Positions 4,669-16,138 of a stretch of 64,000 nucleotides of DNA are shown piece after piece. How positions within the stretch are numbered: the stretch's first letter is position 1; each line of letters starts with the position of its first letter. The position numbers and the translations under genes were made by a program. The DNA lies in the NCBI RefSeq assembly GCF_030813515.1, contig NZ_JAUSUK010000001.1:930001-994000 (forward strand), written 5' to 3'. The notes below the pieces were generated by a model, which was given only the letters and a program-made list of their open reading frames with translations, had not been told where the DNA came from and did not search any database. The stretch comes from Rhodopseudomonas julia (GTDB lineage Bacteria; Pseudomonadota; Alphaproteobacteria; Rhizobiales; Afifellaceae).

Positions 4669-7416
4669 TCACCCCCTCCACCTCCGCATCACCCCCTTCT
4701 CCACCTCCAACACCGCAAACAGCACCACACCCACCCCGAGGATCATCGCACCTTCAGCCACCGAAAGCGGGCGGCTTGCGAAAATGAACTGCGCCGGCGG
4801 GGCGTAGGTGAAGAGAAGCTGCGCCGCGACCTGGATCGCCACGCCGATCAAGACGGCGCGCGTGCCCATCAGGCCGCGCCAGGTGAGCGAGGGGCCGCCG
4901 ATATAGCGGATGGAAAAGAGATAGGCGATTTCCATCACCACCATGGTGTTGACGACGATGGTGCGCGCCGTCTCCACGCTCTCGCCGCGCCAGAGCGCGA
5001 GATTGAACATGCCGAACAGCCCAACGACGAAGAGCCCCGAGACGAAGACGATCCGCCACAACAGGAAGGGCGAGACGAGCGGCTCGTCCGGCTTTCGCGG
5101 CGGCCTTGCCATGGTGCCGGGCTCCGTCGGCTCGAAGGCGAGCGTCAGCCCGAGGGTGACGGCCGTCACCATGTTGATCCAGATGATCTGGGCGGGCGTC
5201 ACCGGCAGCGTCAGGCCGAACAGCATGGCGCCAATGATCGCCGCCGCCTCGCCGCCATTCGTCGGCAGCGTCCAGGCGACGACCTTTTTCAGATTGTCGT
5301 AGACGGTGCGCCCCTCGCGCACGGCGGCGACGATCGAGACGAAATTGTCATCGGCGAGCACCATGTCGGCCGCCTCCTTGGCGGCCTCCGTGCCCTTTTT
5401 CCCCATCGCGACACCGACATCGGCCCGCTTCAGGGCCGGCGCGTCGTTCACCCCGTCGCCGGTCATGGCGACGACCGCGCCTTGCGCCTGCAGCGCCTCC
5501 ACGATGCGCAGCTTGTGGGCGGGGCTTGCGCGCGCGAACACGTCGGTCGCGGCGATCCGGGCGGGAAAGTCCGCCTCGCCGATCTGATCGAGCTCGGGTC
5601 CGGTCAAGACGGCGACGTCGCCGCTCAAGCCGAGCCTGCGACCGATCGCACCGGCGGTCGCGGCATGGTCGCCGGTGATCATCTTCACGGCGATGCCGGC
5701 GCGCTTGCAATCGGCGACGGCCTCGCGGGCCTCCTCGCGCGGCGGATCGATGAGCCCGACGAGCCCGATGAGGCTCAGCCCTTCTTCCACATCGGCCGGC
5801 GCCAACACGTCGACGCTGTCGCCCACCACTTTGGCCGCGAATGCGAGAACCCGGCGCCCGTCCGCCGCCAGCATCTCCACATGGCTTTGCCATTTCGCCC
5901 GGTCGAGCGGCACTTCGCCGTCCGCGTCGACCTGGCGGTCGCACATCTGAAGCACGCATTCGGGCGCGCCCTTCACATAGACGATGCGGGCGTCATCCTC
6001 CTGGTGCAGCGTCGCCATGAACTGGGTGGTGGAATCGAAGGGCAGCTCGTCGCGCCGCTCAAAGGCGCCGCGCGTCGTCTCCCAGTGCCAGCCGGCACGC
6101 GCGGCAAAGGTGACGAGCGCCCCCTCCATCGGGTCGCCCTCAACGACCCAGCCGTCCTCCGTCTGGCGCAGGCTCGCATCGTTGCAGAGAAGCGCGGCGC
6201 GGGCGAGAAGCCCGAGCGCGAAATGCGCCTCCGTGTCGACCGGCTCGCCGTTTCTGATGGGCTCTCCTTCCGGGGCATAGCCCGAACCCACGATCTCGAT
6301 CTCGCCATCGGCCAGGATCGCGGAGGAGACGATCATCTCGTTGCGCGTCAGGGTGCCGGTCTTATCGGAGCAGATGACGGAGACGGAGCCCAGCGTCTCG
6401 ATCGCCGGCAGGCGGCGGATGATGGCGTTGCGGCGCGCCATACGTTCCACGCCGATGGCGAGCGTGATCGTCATCACCGCTGGCAGGCCTTCCGGGATCG
6501 CGGCCACCGCAAGCCCGATCACCGCCATGAAGGCCTCTTCCCAGGGATATCCGGTGAGGAAAATTCCCCACAGGAAGACGAGTATCGCAGCGCCCAGAAT
6601 GACGAAGGTGAGCTGGCGCGCAAAAATGTCCATCTGGCGCAGAAGTGGCGTCGTCAGCTGTTCCACCGAGGACAGAAGCTGCGTGATATGGCCGAGCTCC
6701 GTCGCCTCGCCGGTGGCGACGACCACGCCCGCGCCCTGGCCGTTGACGGCAAGCGTGCCGAAAAACGCCATCGAGGTGCGGTCGCCGATCGACGCATCCG
6801 CCGGAACCTCGCCCGGCGCCTTGTCGGCGGGCACGGATTCGCCGGTAAACGCCGCCTCCTCGATCCGAAGCCCGCGGGCGCGAAAGAGCCGGAGATCGGC
6901 GGGCACACGGTCGCCCGCCTCCAGAAGCACGACATCGCCGGGCACCAGCTCTTCGACCGGCACGGTGAGGCGCCGCCCGTCGCGCAGGACGGAAGCATGC
7001 GGGCTCACCATGCCGCGGATCGCCTCGAGCGCCTTTTCCGCCCGTCCCTCCTGGATGAAGCCGACGACGGCGTTGATGACGACGACGGCGAGGATCAAGG
7101 ACATGTCGATCCATTCCGCCAGAAGCGCGGTCACCACCGCCGCCGCCAGGAGAACGAAAATCAGAAGGTTGTTGAACTGGGCGAGGAAACGCAGAAGCGG
7201 TCCGCGCGGCTTCGCGACGGGCAGGCGGTTTTCCCCGAAGCGGGCAAGCCGGTCGGCCGCCTCCGCCGCACTCAGCCCGTCTCGGCTTGCGCCAAGCGCG
7301 TCGAACACCGTCTCGAGCGGAGCCGCATGGACGGCGACATCGGCTCGCGCCTCCGCAGCTCGATCAGGCCTCAGAGCCGCCTTGTCCGATCCCTCGCCTC
7401 GGCTACCCAACGCCAT
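4669..7416 (-). CDS. Cation-transporting P-type ATPase (type II, Ca2+-ATPase-like)
   Basis: A 915-residue P-type ATPase with all catalytic motifs: an actuator TGES loop (AAFTGESVPADK), membrane helix 4 with PEGLP, the phosphorylated Asp351 in SDKTGTLT, and the hinge TGDGVNDAPALKRADVGVAMG. An N-terminal cation-ATPase domain precedes helix 1, and a C-terminal domain of four more helices follows. The architecture is that of SERCA/PMR1-type pumps. In helix 6, however, the WINMVTAVTLGL segment keeps Asn and Thr but has Ala where Ca2+ pumps carry the ion-binding Asp, so the transported ion is uncertain. It stands alone, divergent from a diguanylate cyclase gene. Confidence 0.92.
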   Translation of the reverse strand: MALGSRGEGSDKAALRPDRAAEARADVAVHAAPLETVFDALGASRDGLSAAEAADRLARFGENRLPVAKPRGPLLRFLAQFNNLLIFVLLAAAVVTALLAEWIDMSLILAVVVINAVVGFIQEGRAEKALEAIRGMVSPHASVLRDGRRLTVPVEELVPGDVVLLEAGDRVPADLRLFRARGLRIEEAAFTGESVPADKAPGEVPADASIGDRTSMAFFGTLAVNGQGAGVVVATGEATELGHITQLLSSVEQLTTPLLRQMDIFARQLTFVILGAAILVFLWGIFLTGYPWEEAFMAVIGLAVAAIPEGLPAVMTITLAIGVERMARRNAIIRRLPAIETLGSVSVICSDKTGTLTRNEMIVSSAILADGEIEIVGSGYAPEGEPIRNGEPVDTEAHFALGLLARAALLCNDASLRQTEDGWVVEGDPMEGALVTFAARAGWHWETTRGAFERRDELPFDSTTQFMATLHQEDDARIVYVKGAPECVLQMCDRQVDADGEVPLDRAKWQSHVEMLAADGRRVLAFAAKVVGDSVDVLAPADVEEGLSLIGLVGLIDPPREEAREAVADCKRAGIAVKMITGDHAATAGAIGRRLGLSGDVAVLTGPELDQIGEADFPARIAATDVFARASPAHKLRIVEALQAQGAVVAMTGDGVNDAPALKRADVGVAMGKKGTEAAKEAADMVLADDNFVSIVAAVREGRTVYDNLKKVVAWTLPTNGGEAAAIIGAMLFGLTLPVTPAQIIWINMVTAVTLGLTLAFEPTEPGTMARPPRKPDEPLVSPFLLWRIVFVSGLFVVGLFGMFNLALWRGESVETARTIVVNTMVVMEIAYLFSIRYIGGPSLTWRGLMGTRAVLIGVAIQVAAQLLFTYAPPAQFIFASRPLSVAEGAMILGVGVVLFAVLEVEKGVMRRWRG

Positions 7417-11263: not shown

Positions 11264-11300
11264 GCGGGGCAGCCATGCCGCTGCGGCATGGCTGCCCCGC
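11264..11300 (-). terminator. Perfect 17-bp hairpin after the padR gene
   Basis: gcggggcagccatgccg and its exact reverse complement are separated by a 3-base loop, starting 5 bp after the PadR stop codon. On the minus strand it is followed by CCTTTCCTCTT, only moderately T-rich. A terminator or mRNA-stabilising structure is likely. Confidence 0.7.
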
Positions 11301-11304
11301 AGGA

Positions 11305-12288
11305 TCAGCTTTGCTCGACGGCGCGTGCCGCTTCGTCGAGAATTGCGGCGATCGCCTGGGCTTCCTCCTTCGACAGCGCACCCCGCTCGCGGCGGAGCGA
11401 CAGCGCCATTTTGAGGTTCTCGAAAGCCCGCAGCACCTCCGGCGCGGAGCGCGAGGGTTGTGCCGCGGCCACTTTTTCCATGCGCGCGAAGATCGCGTTC
11501 ACCAGCGTCTCATGCGCCTCGAGATAGGTGCGCCCTTCGTCGGTGATCGCATAGAGCTTGCGGCCGTCGCGCTCCTCGATCGAGGCATGCCCCATCTCCT
11601 CCAGCATGTTGAGGTTCGGATAGATGACGCCCGGGCTCGGCACATAGGCGCCGGCGAGCTTTTCCTCGATCGCCTTGATGAGGTCGTAGCCGTGGCGCGG
11701 CTCGTCGCGGATCAGCGTCAGGATGACGAGGCGCAGATCGCCCTGGTCGAAGATGCGTCCGCCGCGCCCGCGTCTGCCGCCATGGCTTCCATGCCCGCCG
11801 CCGAAGCCGCCATCCGGACCACCCCGGGGGTCGCCGCCAAAGCCGCCTCCAAAGCCGCCACGGAGACCACCCCGCGGGCCGCCACCAAAACCGCCGCGGG
11901 GACCGCCCCGGGGCGCTCCATGAAGCGCATCACGAGGCCCGCCATGGGGACCGTCATGGCCATGCCCATGCCCATGGCCGCCGCGTCCAAACTCGTGCCC
12001 GAAGGGATGACCATGGCGACCATGCCGCCCGCCTTCAGCCTCCCAATCGCCGAAGTCTTGGCGATCGTCCGGCCTGCGGGCATCGCCGCGGCCAGCTCCT
12101 CTCGCCCTGCGCTCAGGCCCGAAACCGTCGCAGCCTTTGGCCTCGTCGTCGCACATGTCCCGTTCGAAAGTCTCGTCCTCAAAATACGCGCGGCCCGGAT
12201 CGCCGCATGCATCGTGCCGGTGACGGCGACCGCCGCCGAAACGATGATGTCCGCGCTCCGCGCCCGGATGGTTGTGATGATGACGCAT
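11305..12288 (-). CDS. YqjI-like PadR regulator with a giant His/Gly/Arg-rich N-terminal extension
   Basis: A 327-residue regulator. Residues 178-327 form a PadR winged-helix domain (DLRLVILTLI, HGYDLIKAIEE, PSPGVIYPNLNMLEEMG) and a C-terminal helix bundle, closest in pattern to Escherichia coli YqjI, a Ni-responsive repressor. Residues 1-177 are of very low complexity: the start is MRHHHNHPG, the middle contains HGRHGHPFGHEF and HGHGHGHDGPHGG, and the end is made of GGPRGG and GGFGG repeats. YqjI also has a His/Cys-rich N-terminal tail, but of only about 50 residues. I infer metal sensing, probably Ni2+ or another divalent ion. The start at 12288 has a GGAGAA site 7 bp upstream. The gene diverges from the autotransporter gene. 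Confidence 0.9.
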   Translation of the reverse strand: MRHHHNHPGAERGHHRFGGGRRHRHDACGDPGRAYFEDETFERDMCDDEAKGCDGFGPERRARGAGRGDARRPDDRQDFGDWEAEGGRHGRHGHPFGHEFGRGGHGHGHGHDGPHGGPRDALHGAPRGGPRGGFGGGPRGGLRGGFGGGFGGDPRGGPDGGFGGGHGSHGGRRGRGGRIFDQGDLRLVILTLIRDEPRHGYDLIKAIEEKLAGAYVPSPGVIYPNLNMLEEMGHASIEERDGRKLYAITDEGRTYLEAHETLVNAIFARMEKVAAAQPSRSAPEVLRAFENLKMALSLRRERGALSKEEAQAIAAILDEAARAVEQS

Positions 12289-12322
12289 GTCATTCTCCGA
12301 TGCATTTCGATATGTCGTCGAC

Positions 12323-12336
12323 TTAGATATATCTAA
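12323..12336. promoter_or_regulatory. Palindrome TTAGATATATCTAA, candidate PadR operator
   Basis: A perfect 14-bp palindrome of pure A/T-rich character in high-GC surroundings. It lies 34 bp upstream of the padR start and 85 bp upstream of the autotransporter start. Position and symmetry fit a dimeric winged-helix repressor controlling both genes; binding is inferred. Confidence 0.65.
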
Positions 12337-12421
12337 ATGCATCGGACGCAAGAGGGCGTCGCACAAAATTCTCTCCGGCCGAGAGCGGATTGGTAACCAA
12401 TGCGTGGCACAAGAGCGGCAA

Positions 12422-15400
12422 ATGCGTATCAGTTTGTTGCGTTCTGCATTTTCGGGCGTGGGAGTCGGCCTTCTGGCCGCAGGTTTTGGATTCCCCTCGC
12501 CGGGCCTTGCCGGCGACACCGCCTGGCAGGCGACAGCAAGCGACACCTGGCTCGATCCCCGAAACTGGACCTCCGGCACGCCCTCCCGCGACGATGCGGC
12601 CGTCATCGATGCCGCGCCCGCCGTGCGTCTCGAAGGTGAGGATGCAGAGGCTGGGTCGCTCGCCGTCGGCGCTTCGGCCAGCGGCACGATCCGGATTCTG
12701 AGCCGTCTTGCGACGCAAACCGCCACCATCGGCGCAGCAAGCGGAGCGGAGGGCCATGCCACCGTCATCGGCGACCGCGCCAGCTGGCAGAATGCCGGGA
12801 CCCTTGTCGTCGGCGACGAGGGCCAGGGCACACTCAGCGTCGAAGGCGGCGCCTCTCTCGTCACCTCCTCGCTCTCGCTCGGCGAAGCGTCTGGCGGCGG
12901 CGGAAAACTCATCATCACCGGCCAGTCTCTCGCCACGGTCGCCACAGCCCTCATCGTCGGCAAAGCCGGCATCGGCGAGCTTGAGCTTTCTTCCGGCCGG
13001 CTCACAGCCGACAGCGCCCTTCTCGGCGATTTCGCCGGCTCTGAAGGCGTCGCGATCGTCTCCGGCAATCGCGCCACCTGGACCGTCGCGCACAGCCTCA
13101 CCGTCGGTGGCGCCGGGTCCGGTCGCCTCGACATCGTCGCAGGCGGCGAGGTCGCAAGCGCTTCAGGCACGATCGGCGACCAGGCCGGCGGAACTGGCCA
13201 CGTCAGACTCGACGGGCGCGGCTCGTCCTGGACCGTCATCGATGGCATTGCCGTCGGCACACGCGGCTCGGGGCTTCTCTCCGTCTCGGGCTCCGCATCG
13301 GTCGCCTCGGGCTCAGGTATGGTTGGGGCGGAGGCCGGCGCTGACGGCAAAGTCGTGATCAACGGATCGGACAGCCGCTGGACGACGGGCGCTCTCACTG
13401 TCGGCGGCAAAGGCGCGGGCGACATCGAGGTCGCGGCCGGCGGAACGCTCACGAGCGGCGACAGCACGCTCGGCGCCGAAGCCGGCTCAGACGGCTACGT
13501 CACGGTTTCCGGCGAAGGCTCGTCTTGGACGACGAAGGCGCTTGCGATCGGCGGCAACGCTGACGCGCGATCGGCAGGCGGCGCGGGATCGACAGGCGGC
13601 AGGGGCACCCTCGACGTCACCGCCGGCGGTTCGGTCACAAGCGACAGCGCCGCACTCGGCGCGGCGCAGGGCGCAACCGGGACCGCCAGCCTCGAAGGCT
13701 CCGGCTCGTCCTGGACGGTGATCGACGGAATTTCCATCGGCACGCGCGGCTCCGGCCTTCTCGCCATCGACAGCGGCGCAAGCGTCACTGCGGCCGAAAC
13801 GATCGTCGGGGCAGAAACGGGCAGCGAGGGCGCCGTCCGTATCACGGGCGCGGGCTCCTCGCTCGAGGCCGGCCAGGACCTCGTCATCGGTGACGGCGGC
13901 AGCGGCGACGCCAAAATCGCGGCGGGCGGCGAAGCCAGCGCCATCCGCATCGTCATCGGCAGAAAGGCCGGCTCGTCCGGCACGACGACGATCGAGGGCA
14001 ACGGCTCAGACCTCGTAAGTTCAAGCGACATCACCATCGGCGAGGCGGGATCCGGCAACCTCGCCGTATCGCGCGGCGGACACGCCGCAGGCCAGGAGAT
14101 CGTGCTCGGTAGGGCCGCCGGCGCATCCGGGGCCGCCAGCGTCACCGGCAACGGCTCCCACCTCGCCTCTTCCGACACGATCACCGTTGGAGATGACGGC
14201 ACCGGCACACTGCACGTCTCCGGCGGCGGCCGGGTCACGGCCGCAAATGTCGTCGTCGCCCGCCAGAAAGGCTCCACCGGCACGGTGATTGTCGGCGCCG
14301 AAGACACCCCGGTCTCCGCCGGCCGTCTCGGAGCCAAAACGATCGCTTTCGGGGAGGGCACCGGCACGCTCCTCCTCAACCATTCCGATCCAGATTACAG
14401 GCTCGACACGGCTCTTACCGGCAATGGCGCGGTCAAAGTCCTCTCCGGCACGACGATCCTGACCGGGGATTCCTCCGATTTCACCGGCACGACAGAGATC
14501 CGCAACGCGCGCCTGCTCGTGGGCGCCGAGAGCGGCAGCGATGCGGCCCTCGCCGGCGCGCTTCAGGTCGGCGACAACGGTCTTCTCGGCGGCACCGGCA
14601 GCGTCGGCACGACCCGTATCGGCGCGGGCGGCACGCTCTCGCCAGGTGCTTTCGGGATCGGCACCTTGTCGGTCGACGGCGATCTCACCCTCTCCTCCGG
14701 CTCGACCTATTCGGCCGAACTCGGCACTGACGGATCGAGCGACCGCGTCGATGTCACCGGCAAGGCCGTGATCGAGGGCGGCAGCCTCGCTTTGACCGGC
14801 ACGCGCGGGCCCGGACATTACACGCTCCTGACGGCGAGCGAGGGCGTCACCGGCCGCTTCGACACTCTCCTTGCGACGAGCCGGCTCTTTCTCGATCTCG
14901 CTCTCGATTACGAAAGCGGTGCCCTGTCGCTTGCCGTCACGCGCAATGGGCTCGCCTTTCAGGATGCCGCCATCAGCGCCGATCAGCGAGCCGTCGCCGC
15001 GGCGGCCGAAAGCCTCGGCGCCGGCAATGCGCTCTACGACGCCCTCCTGCTTTCGCCGGATACCGTGGTTGCGGCCGGCGCCTACACCGCTCTGTCCGGA
15101 CAGGTGCATGGCGAGGCGCGCCGCGCCGTCGTGCAGCAGGGCCGTTTCCTGCGCGATGCCGTCGGAGAGCGCCTGCGGACGACGTTGCGTGATGATCCAC
15201 CCTCGCGGTTTTCACCGCTTGCCTATACGGGCGACGATCTTCTGGAGCCCCCGGCCATCGAGGCGCTCTCCTATGCCGCCGGCCAAAAGACCGGCCATGA
15301 GCCGGACGCGACCCAGCGCAACATTTGGGCCAGGGCCTTTGGCAGCTGGGGGGCTTTTTCCGCAGAGACCGGAAGGCCGGGTTATTCGATCAAGGAAGGC

Positions 15401-16138
15401 GGGTTCGTCGCCGGCCTCGACAATATGGTCGGCTCGGCCTGGCGCCTCGGCACCGCCGTCGTCCTCGGGCGCGCCTCCCTCGACGGACGCGATGGCGCGG
15501 ACGCCGTCGTCGACAGCTATGGCGCGGCCCTTTACGGCGGCCGCCACATCGGCGCTTTCGGCCTGACGGGCGGAGCCGCCTATAGCTTCAACCATATCGA
15601 GACGAAGCGCGACGTCGTCATCGGCGAATTCGCCGAACGCGAGCGCGCCGATTACTGGAACCGGACAGGCCAGGTCTTCGGCGAGCTGAGCTACGAAACC
15701 TCGCTCGCCGCCCTTGCCATCGAGCCTTTTGCCGGCCTCGCCTTCATGCATGTCGAGGGCGCGGATATCTCGGAGACGGGGCAGATAGCAGGGCTTGCCG
15801 GAGATTTCGAAAGCCAGAACCTCCTCTTCTCCACGCTCGGCCTGCGCGCATCGAGCCTCTTCACGCTTCCCGGCGGTCGGCTCGCCCTTGTTGCCGGACA
15901 TGTCGGCTGGCGCCATGCGGAGGGCGACCTTTCCCCCGCCTCGACGCTCCGCTTCGCGGCGGGCGGTCCGAGCTTTTCCACGCAAGCCTCGCCGGTTGCC
16001 GCCGACGCGGCGCTTCTCGGCGCGTCCCTCTCCGTCGCGATCGCCGAAATGACGATGCTGTCGTTTTCCTATGACGGCGAGTTCGCCGGCAAAGGCCACA
16101 GCCACGATTTCAACGGCAGCTTTTCGATGCGGTTTTAA
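12422..16138 (+). CDS. Large autotransporter adhesin (type Va secretion)
   Basis: A 1238-residue autotransporter. A signal peptide (MRISLLRSAF... to about GLAG, residue 31) is followed by a passenger built of about ten imperfect units of 45-55 residues, each of the form GxGSSWT - VGxxGxGxLxV - GGxV - GxxAGxxG, typical of a beta-helix (about residues 95-625). A linker with SPGAFGIGTLSVDGDL leads to an alpha-helical segment and the C-terminal translocator barrel from about residue 966, ending FNGSFSMRF with the terminal Phe of outer-membrane barrels. It should display the passenger on the cell surface, most likely for adhesion. The start at 12422 gives a proper signal peptide; an earlier in-frame ATG at 12287 would run across the operator region. 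Two units share almost identical protein but differ at silent sites. Confidence 0.93.
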   Translation: MRISLLRSAFSGVGVGLLAAGFGFPSPGLAGDTAWQATASDTWLDPRNWTSGTPSRDDAAVIDAAPAVRLEGEDAEAGSLAVGASASGTIRILSRLATQTATIGAASGAEGHATVIGDRASWQNAGTLVVGDEGQGTLSVEGGASLVTSSLSLGEASGGGGKLIITGQSLATVATALIVGKAGIGELELSSGRLTADSALLGDFAGSEGVAIVSGNRATWTVAHSLTVGGAGSGRLDIVAGGEVASASGTIGDQAGGTGHVRLDGRGSSWTVIDGIAVGTRGSGLLSVSGSASVASGSGMVGAEAGADGKVVINGSDSRWTTGALTVGGKGAGDIEVAAGGTLTSGDSTLGAEAGSDGYVTVSGEGSSWTTKALAIGGNADARSAGGAGSTGGRGTLDVTAGGSVTSDSAALGAAQGATGTASLEGSGSSWTVIDGISIGTRGSGLLAIDSGASVTAAETIVGAETGSEGAVRITGAGSSLEAGQDLVIGDGGSGDAKIAAGGEASAIRIVIGRKAGSSGTTTIEGNGSDLVSSSDITIGEAGSGNLAVSRGGHAAGQEIVLGRAAGASGAASVTGNGSHLASSDTITVGDDGTGTLHVSGGGRVTAANVVVARQKGSTGTVIVGAEDTPVSAGRLGAKTIAFGEGTGTLLLNHSDPDYRLDTALTGNGAVKVLSGTTILTGDSSDFTGTTEIRNARLLVGAESGSDAALAGALQVGDNGLLGGTGSVGTTRIGAGGTLSPGAFGIGTLSVDGDLTLSSGSTYSAELGTDGSSDRVDVTGKAVIEGGSLALTGTRGPGHYTLLTASEGVTGRFDTLLATSRLFLDLALDYESGALSLAVTRNGLAFQDAAISADQRAVAAAAESLGAGNALYDALLLSPDTVVAAGAYTALSGQVHGEARRAVVQQGRFLRDAVGERLRTTLRDDPPSRFSPLAYTGDDLLEPPAIEALSYAAGQKTGHEPDATQRNIWARAFGSWGAFSAETGRPGYSIKEGGFVAGLDNMVGSAWRLGTAVVLGRASLDGRDGADAVVDSYGAALYGGRHIGAFGLTGGAAYSFNHIETKRDVVIGEFAERERADYWNRTGQVFGELSYETSLAALAIEPFAGLAFMHVEGADISETGQIAGLAGDFESQNLLFSTLGLRASSLFTLPGGRLALVAGHVGWRHAEGDLSPASTLRFAAGGPSFSTQASPVAADAALLGASLSVAIAEMTMLSFSYDGEFAGKGHSHDFNGSFSMRF

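Follow-up and report, generated by a model that had tools for sequence, protein, structure and literature searches.

The best-described relative of the protein studied here is YqjI, or NfeR, of Escherichia coli (b3071), a nickel-responsive PadR repressor of nfeF (yqjH). According to PMC7981267, excess nickel relieves NfeR repression of nfeF in E. coli, homologues of NfeR have been tied to nickel resistance in fitness screens, and an nfeR mutant of Klebsiella showed an 85-fold increase in nfeF expression with unchanged nickel tolerance. PMC9508795 places nfeR among the genes upregulated in a treatment that we take to be high nickel, and PMC7055735 contains no mention of YqjI, NfeR or PadR. Among the literature matches listed, no title dealt with long-tailed or alphaproteobacterial YqjI-type PadRs.

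The window, that is, the whole stretch of 64,000 nucleotides analysed here, contains a gene of this type on the minus strand at 11305-12288. In the DNA-binding domain, its product shares 39% identity with E. coli NfeR and 44-59% with the other rows of the alignment. Both proteins carry an N-terminal Gly/Arg tail with His residues, and the same 14-base operator, TTAGATATATCTAA, lies just upstream of both genes; in E. coli, the nfeF side carries CAGATATATCTAAA. The two systems differ in the length of the tail (178 residues in the window protein, 56 in E. coli NfeR), in its His and Cys content (20 His and 3 Cys against 12 His and 7 Cys) and in the divergent neighbour, which is an autotransporter gene in the window and nfeF in E. 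coli. YqjI-type PadRs with short tails, found in sphingomonads and other Alphaproteobacteria (L005-L083), share the domain, the operator and a Gly/Arg tail whose last residue before the domain is Arg; their tails, however, do not exceed 80 residues in the 79 loci of the first set other than A. marina. Searches of solved structures by sequence and by fold returned PadR/LmrR proteins (Foldseek E down to 1.3e-04), which have the winged helix of the window protein, the comparison being confined to the domain.

An operator of the GATATATC type just upstream of its own gene is one of the marks of a YqjI-type PadR, together with the domain and an N-terminal tail bearing His and Cys, and the window gene has one. 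The initial annotation had assigned the domain to this type, and that assignment holds: on the evidence of domain and operator together, membership of the YqjI/NfeR family can hardly be doubted. The most likely reading, held with moderate confidence, is that the protein is an autorepressor of the YqjI (NfeR) type, modulated by metal, with an expanded disordered tail. A dimer would bind the operator and block transcription of its own gene, the Arg/Gly arm beside the domain may help to hold or tune this binding, and a first-row metal seated on the His clusters, nickel if the analogy with E. coli holds, would weaken DNA binding and derepress the gene.

Reading frame, operator and putative promoter

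The frame at 11305-12288 (minus strand) has no internal stops and translates into 327 residues followed by a stop codon. The Pfam PadR family (PF03551) matches residues 189-257 with an E value of 4.7e-17 and 62.2 bits, against a curated cut-off of 27; these codons occupy 11518-11724 on the minus strand, and the structural model gives them the helices and strands of a winged-helix domain at pLDDT above 90. Three C-terminal helices of the model (codons 260-326, 11311-11511, minus strand) presumably form the dimer arm, a role assigned from other PadR proteins. Conservation with the homologues sets in at residue 179, which leaves a tail of 178 residues. Directly after the stop codon, a strong intrinsic-terminator-like hairpin of 17 pairs is found at 11264-11300 on the minus strand.

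The source genome (G000, 3.79 Mb) was compared with four congeners (G001-G004), among which G002 is taken to be Afifella marina DSM 2698. The ATG at 12288 is preceded by a Shine-Dalgarno-like GGAG at 12295-12298 (minus strand), identical in G001, and by an operator core 45 nt upstream; the same start is present in the two sister species, G001 and G002. An alternative in-frame ATG at residue 45 is not accompanied by a Shine-Dalgarno-like site in the sister genes. A longer open frame, of 720-729 residues, is mechanical read-through upstream of the ATG at 12288.

The operator, TTAGATATATCTAA, is located at 12323-12336, and this is its only exact copy in the source genome. A second operator-like element, GACATATC on the minus strand, is located at 12309-12316 and is kept in G001 and G002. 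The putative promoter of the gene (12324-12351, minus strand) consists of TTGCGT at 12351-12346, a 16-base spacer and TATCTA at 12329-12324, the last of which falls inside the operator. A generic sigma-70 scan called no promoter at the PadR gene. The TTG is a family-wide feature: at 18-20 nt before the operator core it was counted 134 times over 180 promoters, where about 3 would be expected per distance, and the operator thus probably covers the -10 region of its own promoter. Of 195 homologues, 181 have the exact sequence GATATATC in the 110 nt upstream, compared with 14 of 2,542 random windows from the same loci; the starts of the homologues were partly chosen by operator position, which makes the upstream count lean upward and likewise favours the TTG count and the survey of tail lengths given below. 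From E. coli to Afifella, the operator is kept almost letter for letter. Autorepression is a part of the reading in which we have high confidence, and the protein's own promoter appears to be the clearest DNA target found for it.

Composition, disorder and conservation of the tail

The tail (codons 1-178; 11755-12288, minus strand) contains 20 His, 58 Gly, 28 Arg, 3 Cys and 11 Phe, and its charge is nearly balanced, with 29 Arg and Lys against 25 Asp and Glu. The initial annotation had described a His/Gly/Arg-rich extension of 177 residues, making up over half of the protein and far longer than the tail of YqjI; apart from one residue in the count, this description is accurate, with 178 of 327 residues in the tail and both HGHGHGHDGPH and the PRGG/GGFGG repeats present. 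By composition, the minus-strand sequence begins with a His cap (codons 1-28, 12205-12288) with 8 His, followed by an acidic part (codons 29-58, 12115-12204) with 2 Cys and no His, and by a part rich in Arg and Asp/Glu (codons 59-87, 12028-12114), also free of His. A His-Gly block with 9 His (codons 88-119, 11932-12027) follows, including a 6-base DNA array at 11955-11976, and the tail is completed by GGPRGG/GGFGG repeats (codons 120-178, 11755-11931) that end in RRGRGGR at the domain. The pairs HH and HxH occur 9 times, against a mean of 4.0 in 2,000 shuffles of the same tail (p 0.002); in the A. marina tail, the corresponding excess is not significant (p 0.14). AlphaFold2 pLDDT averages 35-56 over the tail in blocks of ten residues and is mostly above 90 over the domain, a low confidence of the kind given to disordered segments.

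Both sister species retain the whole tail in frame, with gaps of whole codons only. Comparison with G001 over 177 codons puts the dN/dS of the tail at about 0.16, and comparison with G002 over 151 codons puts it at about 0.25; the values for the domain are about 0.10 and 0.16. Of its 20 His, 18 are retained in G001 and 12 in G002, where another 5 fall in gaps. Judged from these comparisons, the tail is translated and under selection. The more distant congeners, G003 and G004, which are the closest other relatives (56% and 59% identical in the domain), carry shorter tails, of 40 and 48 residues, each containing a single His. The worry raised with the initial annotation, that close homologues might lack the tail or fail to conserve its composition, is thus unfounded for the sister species G001 and G002, but the tail is not kept at this length and His content in G003 and G004.

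These data bear on the possibility that the extra length is nearly neutral, low-complexity growth without a function of its own. DNA arrays of period 12, 36 and 48 lie within 11795-11914, in the repeat part formed by codons 120-178, and tail length varies from 151 to 181 among the sisters and from 40 to 48 in the other congeners, as expected of such growth; the several origins of long tails described below point the same way. The dN/dS values of the tail argue against it, as do residues 1-87, which are non-repetitive and yet identical at 83 of 87 positions in G001 and at 71 of 86 in G002. Neutral growth is given a small but real chance. Under the preferred reading of a metal-modulated autorepressor, the extra length would be repeat growth of a tail already present in the family rather than a new domain.

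Tail length and histidine content in the family

In the order, 127 of 397 genomes gave profile matches at E up to 1e-15, a limit that also admits a more distant group; at E up to 1e-42, matches were obtained in 39 of 385 genomes for the class and 40 of 398 for the phylum. The survey combined 120 loci read from these matches with 80 loci of the first set; the 200 homologues correspond to 196 distinct proteins, 182 of which were retained; the 14 that were dropped lacked an operator-like core within 100 nt and include tails scripted as 100 and 103 residues (L250, L247). Starts were scripted from operator position and Shine-Dalgarno score, and some are wrong, as those of L029 and L185 appear to be. 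The median tail length among the 182 operator-anchored homologues was 52 residues, with quartiles of 47 and 59, values that lean long because the additional loci were picked mostly for long open frames; the matches left out have open frames of up to 254 residues, with room for tails of roughly 105 residues at most.

The longest tails were those of G001 (181 residues), the window protein (178) and A. marina (151), followed by tails of 139 (L232), 125, 122 and 116 (L172, L242 and L239), 109 (L249) and 108 (L163) residues. The window tail is thus the second longest of 182, exceeded only by that of its sister. The other long-tailed members share with it the operator-anchored start and a long Gly/Arg tail, but they belong to separate lineages, contain few His (2 in L232 and 3-10 in the rest) and have no HGHGHG block. 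The 12 tails of at least 90 residues require six changes on the tree, and well-supported branches force five of these; the tree is a quick one that carries long-branch warnings. Long tails therefore seem to have arisen several times; the window tail stands near the top of the lengths found, yet long tails recur elsewhere. To this extent, the view that the arrangement has no parallel among PadR proteins is not supported: Gly/Arg tails with some His are, by the survey, the norm among YqjI-type proteins, and other lineages have tails that reach 96-139 residues.

The richness of the tail in Gly and Arg is nearly constant across the 182 homologues, and the residue just before the domain is Arg in 176 and Lys in 4. 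Tails with at most 2 His and at most 1 Cys were found in 26 of the 182, several of them short, and metal sensing is therefore excluded as the role that all tails of the family share. Since these His-poor tails stand behind the same operator, the constant role may be that of a flexible basic arm, to which some members would add metal binding. For the window protein, a metal response is put forward by analogy with E. coli, as somewhat better than an even proposition.

Targets, neighbouring genes and rival roles of the protein

In 40 carrier genomes, selected by the authors from the carriers found, the strict operator WAGATATATCTW was detected at 32 sites in 29 genomes, with none in the other 11. 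All but one of these sites (31 of 32) lie upstream of the PadR gene itself, the exception (G672) being on another contig; of the 29 genomes with the strict operator, 28 thus have it nowhere but at the gene's own promoter. The strict pattern misses weaker sites, such as the E. coli nfeF site CAGATATATCTA, which does not fit it. The sequence AGATATATCTW was present in 6 of 8 other genomes, and a comparison of coordinates in these eight placed it away from the PadR gene only once, in G007 (L122), at a place read as lying inside an LptF-like permease frame. No wider regulon was indicated in the source genome, where TTAGATATATCTAA with up to 3 mismatches occurs at 11 places, the same number as for the reversed-pattern control, and AGATATATCT with up to 1 mismatch occurs at 22 places against 28 for the control, the exact site being included in both searches.

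A repressor whose clearest target is itself raises the question of its role and of the purpose of a variable disordered tail. One answer is that the tail is the output of the gene, a buffer for metal or another ligand, and that the DNA-binding domain mainly sets the protein's own level. Such a role is suggested by the restriction of the strict operator to the gene's own promoter, by the lack of conserved neighbours among the nine frames scanned, by the selection acting on the tail, and by the length and His number of the Afifella tails, which are at the top of the family (20 His in the window tail, equalled by G001). The high-capacity buffer proposed in the initial annotation keeps its basis in this number, but His density is average (11.2% in the window tail; family median 10.6%), and E. 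coli NfeR places its 12 His and 7 Cys in only 56 residues. The limits of the strict pattern, with its missed weaker operators and the 11 of 40 genomes without a site, also weigh against the idea, and we regard it as improbable. A broader proposal, also improbable, is that many alphaproteobacterial YqjI-type PadRs are effectors regulating mainly themselves, whose selected disordered tail, expanded to about 180 residues in Afifella, would be the working part, as a self-adjusting metal buffer or as a nucleic-acid-binding, condensing protein, instead of sensing for a regulon. Having the longest tails of the survey, the proteins of Afifella lend themselves to telling apart what the His blocks, the Gly/Arg repeats and the basic arm beside the domain each do.

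The divergent gene in the window encodes an autotransporter (12422-16138, plus strand, with 12422 as the probable start), recognised by nine matched T5SS/PEP-CTERM-type repeats and a beta-barrel domain (NCBIfam). As the operator sits between the two genes, the autotransporter is a possible second target, and its control from the shared intergenic region might even be the real task of the regulator. G001 and G002 show strong conservation of the upstream block, and each has a divergent frame of similar length at this position. However, the operator, about 85 bases from the probable autotransporter start, occupies the position of the PadR promoter, other homologues have other neighbours, and the palindrome in the conserved block near the autotransporter is a different one; we therefore consider this role quite unlikely. 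The palindrome in question, ATTGGTAACCAAT at 12389-12401, is perfect, lies in a block fully conserved in both sisters, and is likely to be the site of another regulator.

Neighbouring frames of the homologues were picked mechanically for scanning and need not be the true next genes. In G003 and G004, the operator TTCGATATATCGAA is located between the PadR gene and a divergent gene for a Rieske iron-sulfur subunit (L128, about 6196-6413, and L129, about 6560-6670, respectively), the G003 neighbour being recognised by NCBIfam as well. The remaining matches were PRC-barrel, lactate/malate dehydrogenase, MgsA-type ATPase and GrpE, and three of the nine scanned frames had no match.

Condensation, or RNA or DNA binding, driven by the Gly/Arg/Phe part in the manner of an RGG domain is considered very unlikely: RGG is mildly enriched, as the initial annotation's RGG-like domain would have it (7 against a mean of 2.9 in 2,000 shuffles of the same tail, p 0.0145), and the 58 Gly, the 11 Phe and the low pLDDT agree, but RG and GR together are not enriched (20 against 18.2, p 0.33), the charge is nearly balanced, and the RGG excess is not significant in A. 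marina (p 0.09).

The metal-modulated autorepressor reading has its own difficulty in the position of nfeF. An nfeF gene was expected beside the window gene, but the divergent gene there is the autotransporter. The nfeF-like gene of the source genome, a siderophore-interacting protein gene 27.7% identical to E. coli NfeF at the protein level (L131, C1, around 807660), lies elsewhere, divergent from a NikR gene, and no operator of this type was found in the 3,339 bases examined near it. The NikR call rests on NF002815 (174 bits against a cut-off of 83) and is just under the TIGR02793 cut-off; the NikR protein itself ends in a His-rich sequence, HSGGSHDDHDH. The arrangement possibly reflects a nickel-iron wiring different from that of E. 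coli.

Searches with E. coli NfeF and the source-genome homologue also covered 136 loci, including some 1.5-4 kb of flanking sequence. Of the 9 PadR loci from other classes of the phylum, 8 (all except L218) have an nfeF-like gene close to the PadR gene; within the class, such genes were found at L187 and L188 and weakly (1.4e-06) at L197, a further match, L131, being the source-genome gene itself. Among the alphaproteobacterial loci examined, the YqjI-type operator thus rarely adjoins the textbook target nfeF. Near the nfeF-like genes of L224 and L225, the PadR proteins have almost no tail (13 residues by script, in an open frame of 172), so the His tail is dispensable there. At L221, the PadR gene adjoins an nfeF-like gene whose product is 81% identical to E. 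coli NfeF, and the 84-residue tail contains 19 His and 10 Cys with the near-repeats HHEGCCSGEGE and HHHGGCNGE, which suggests growth by His/Cys repeats in another lineage.
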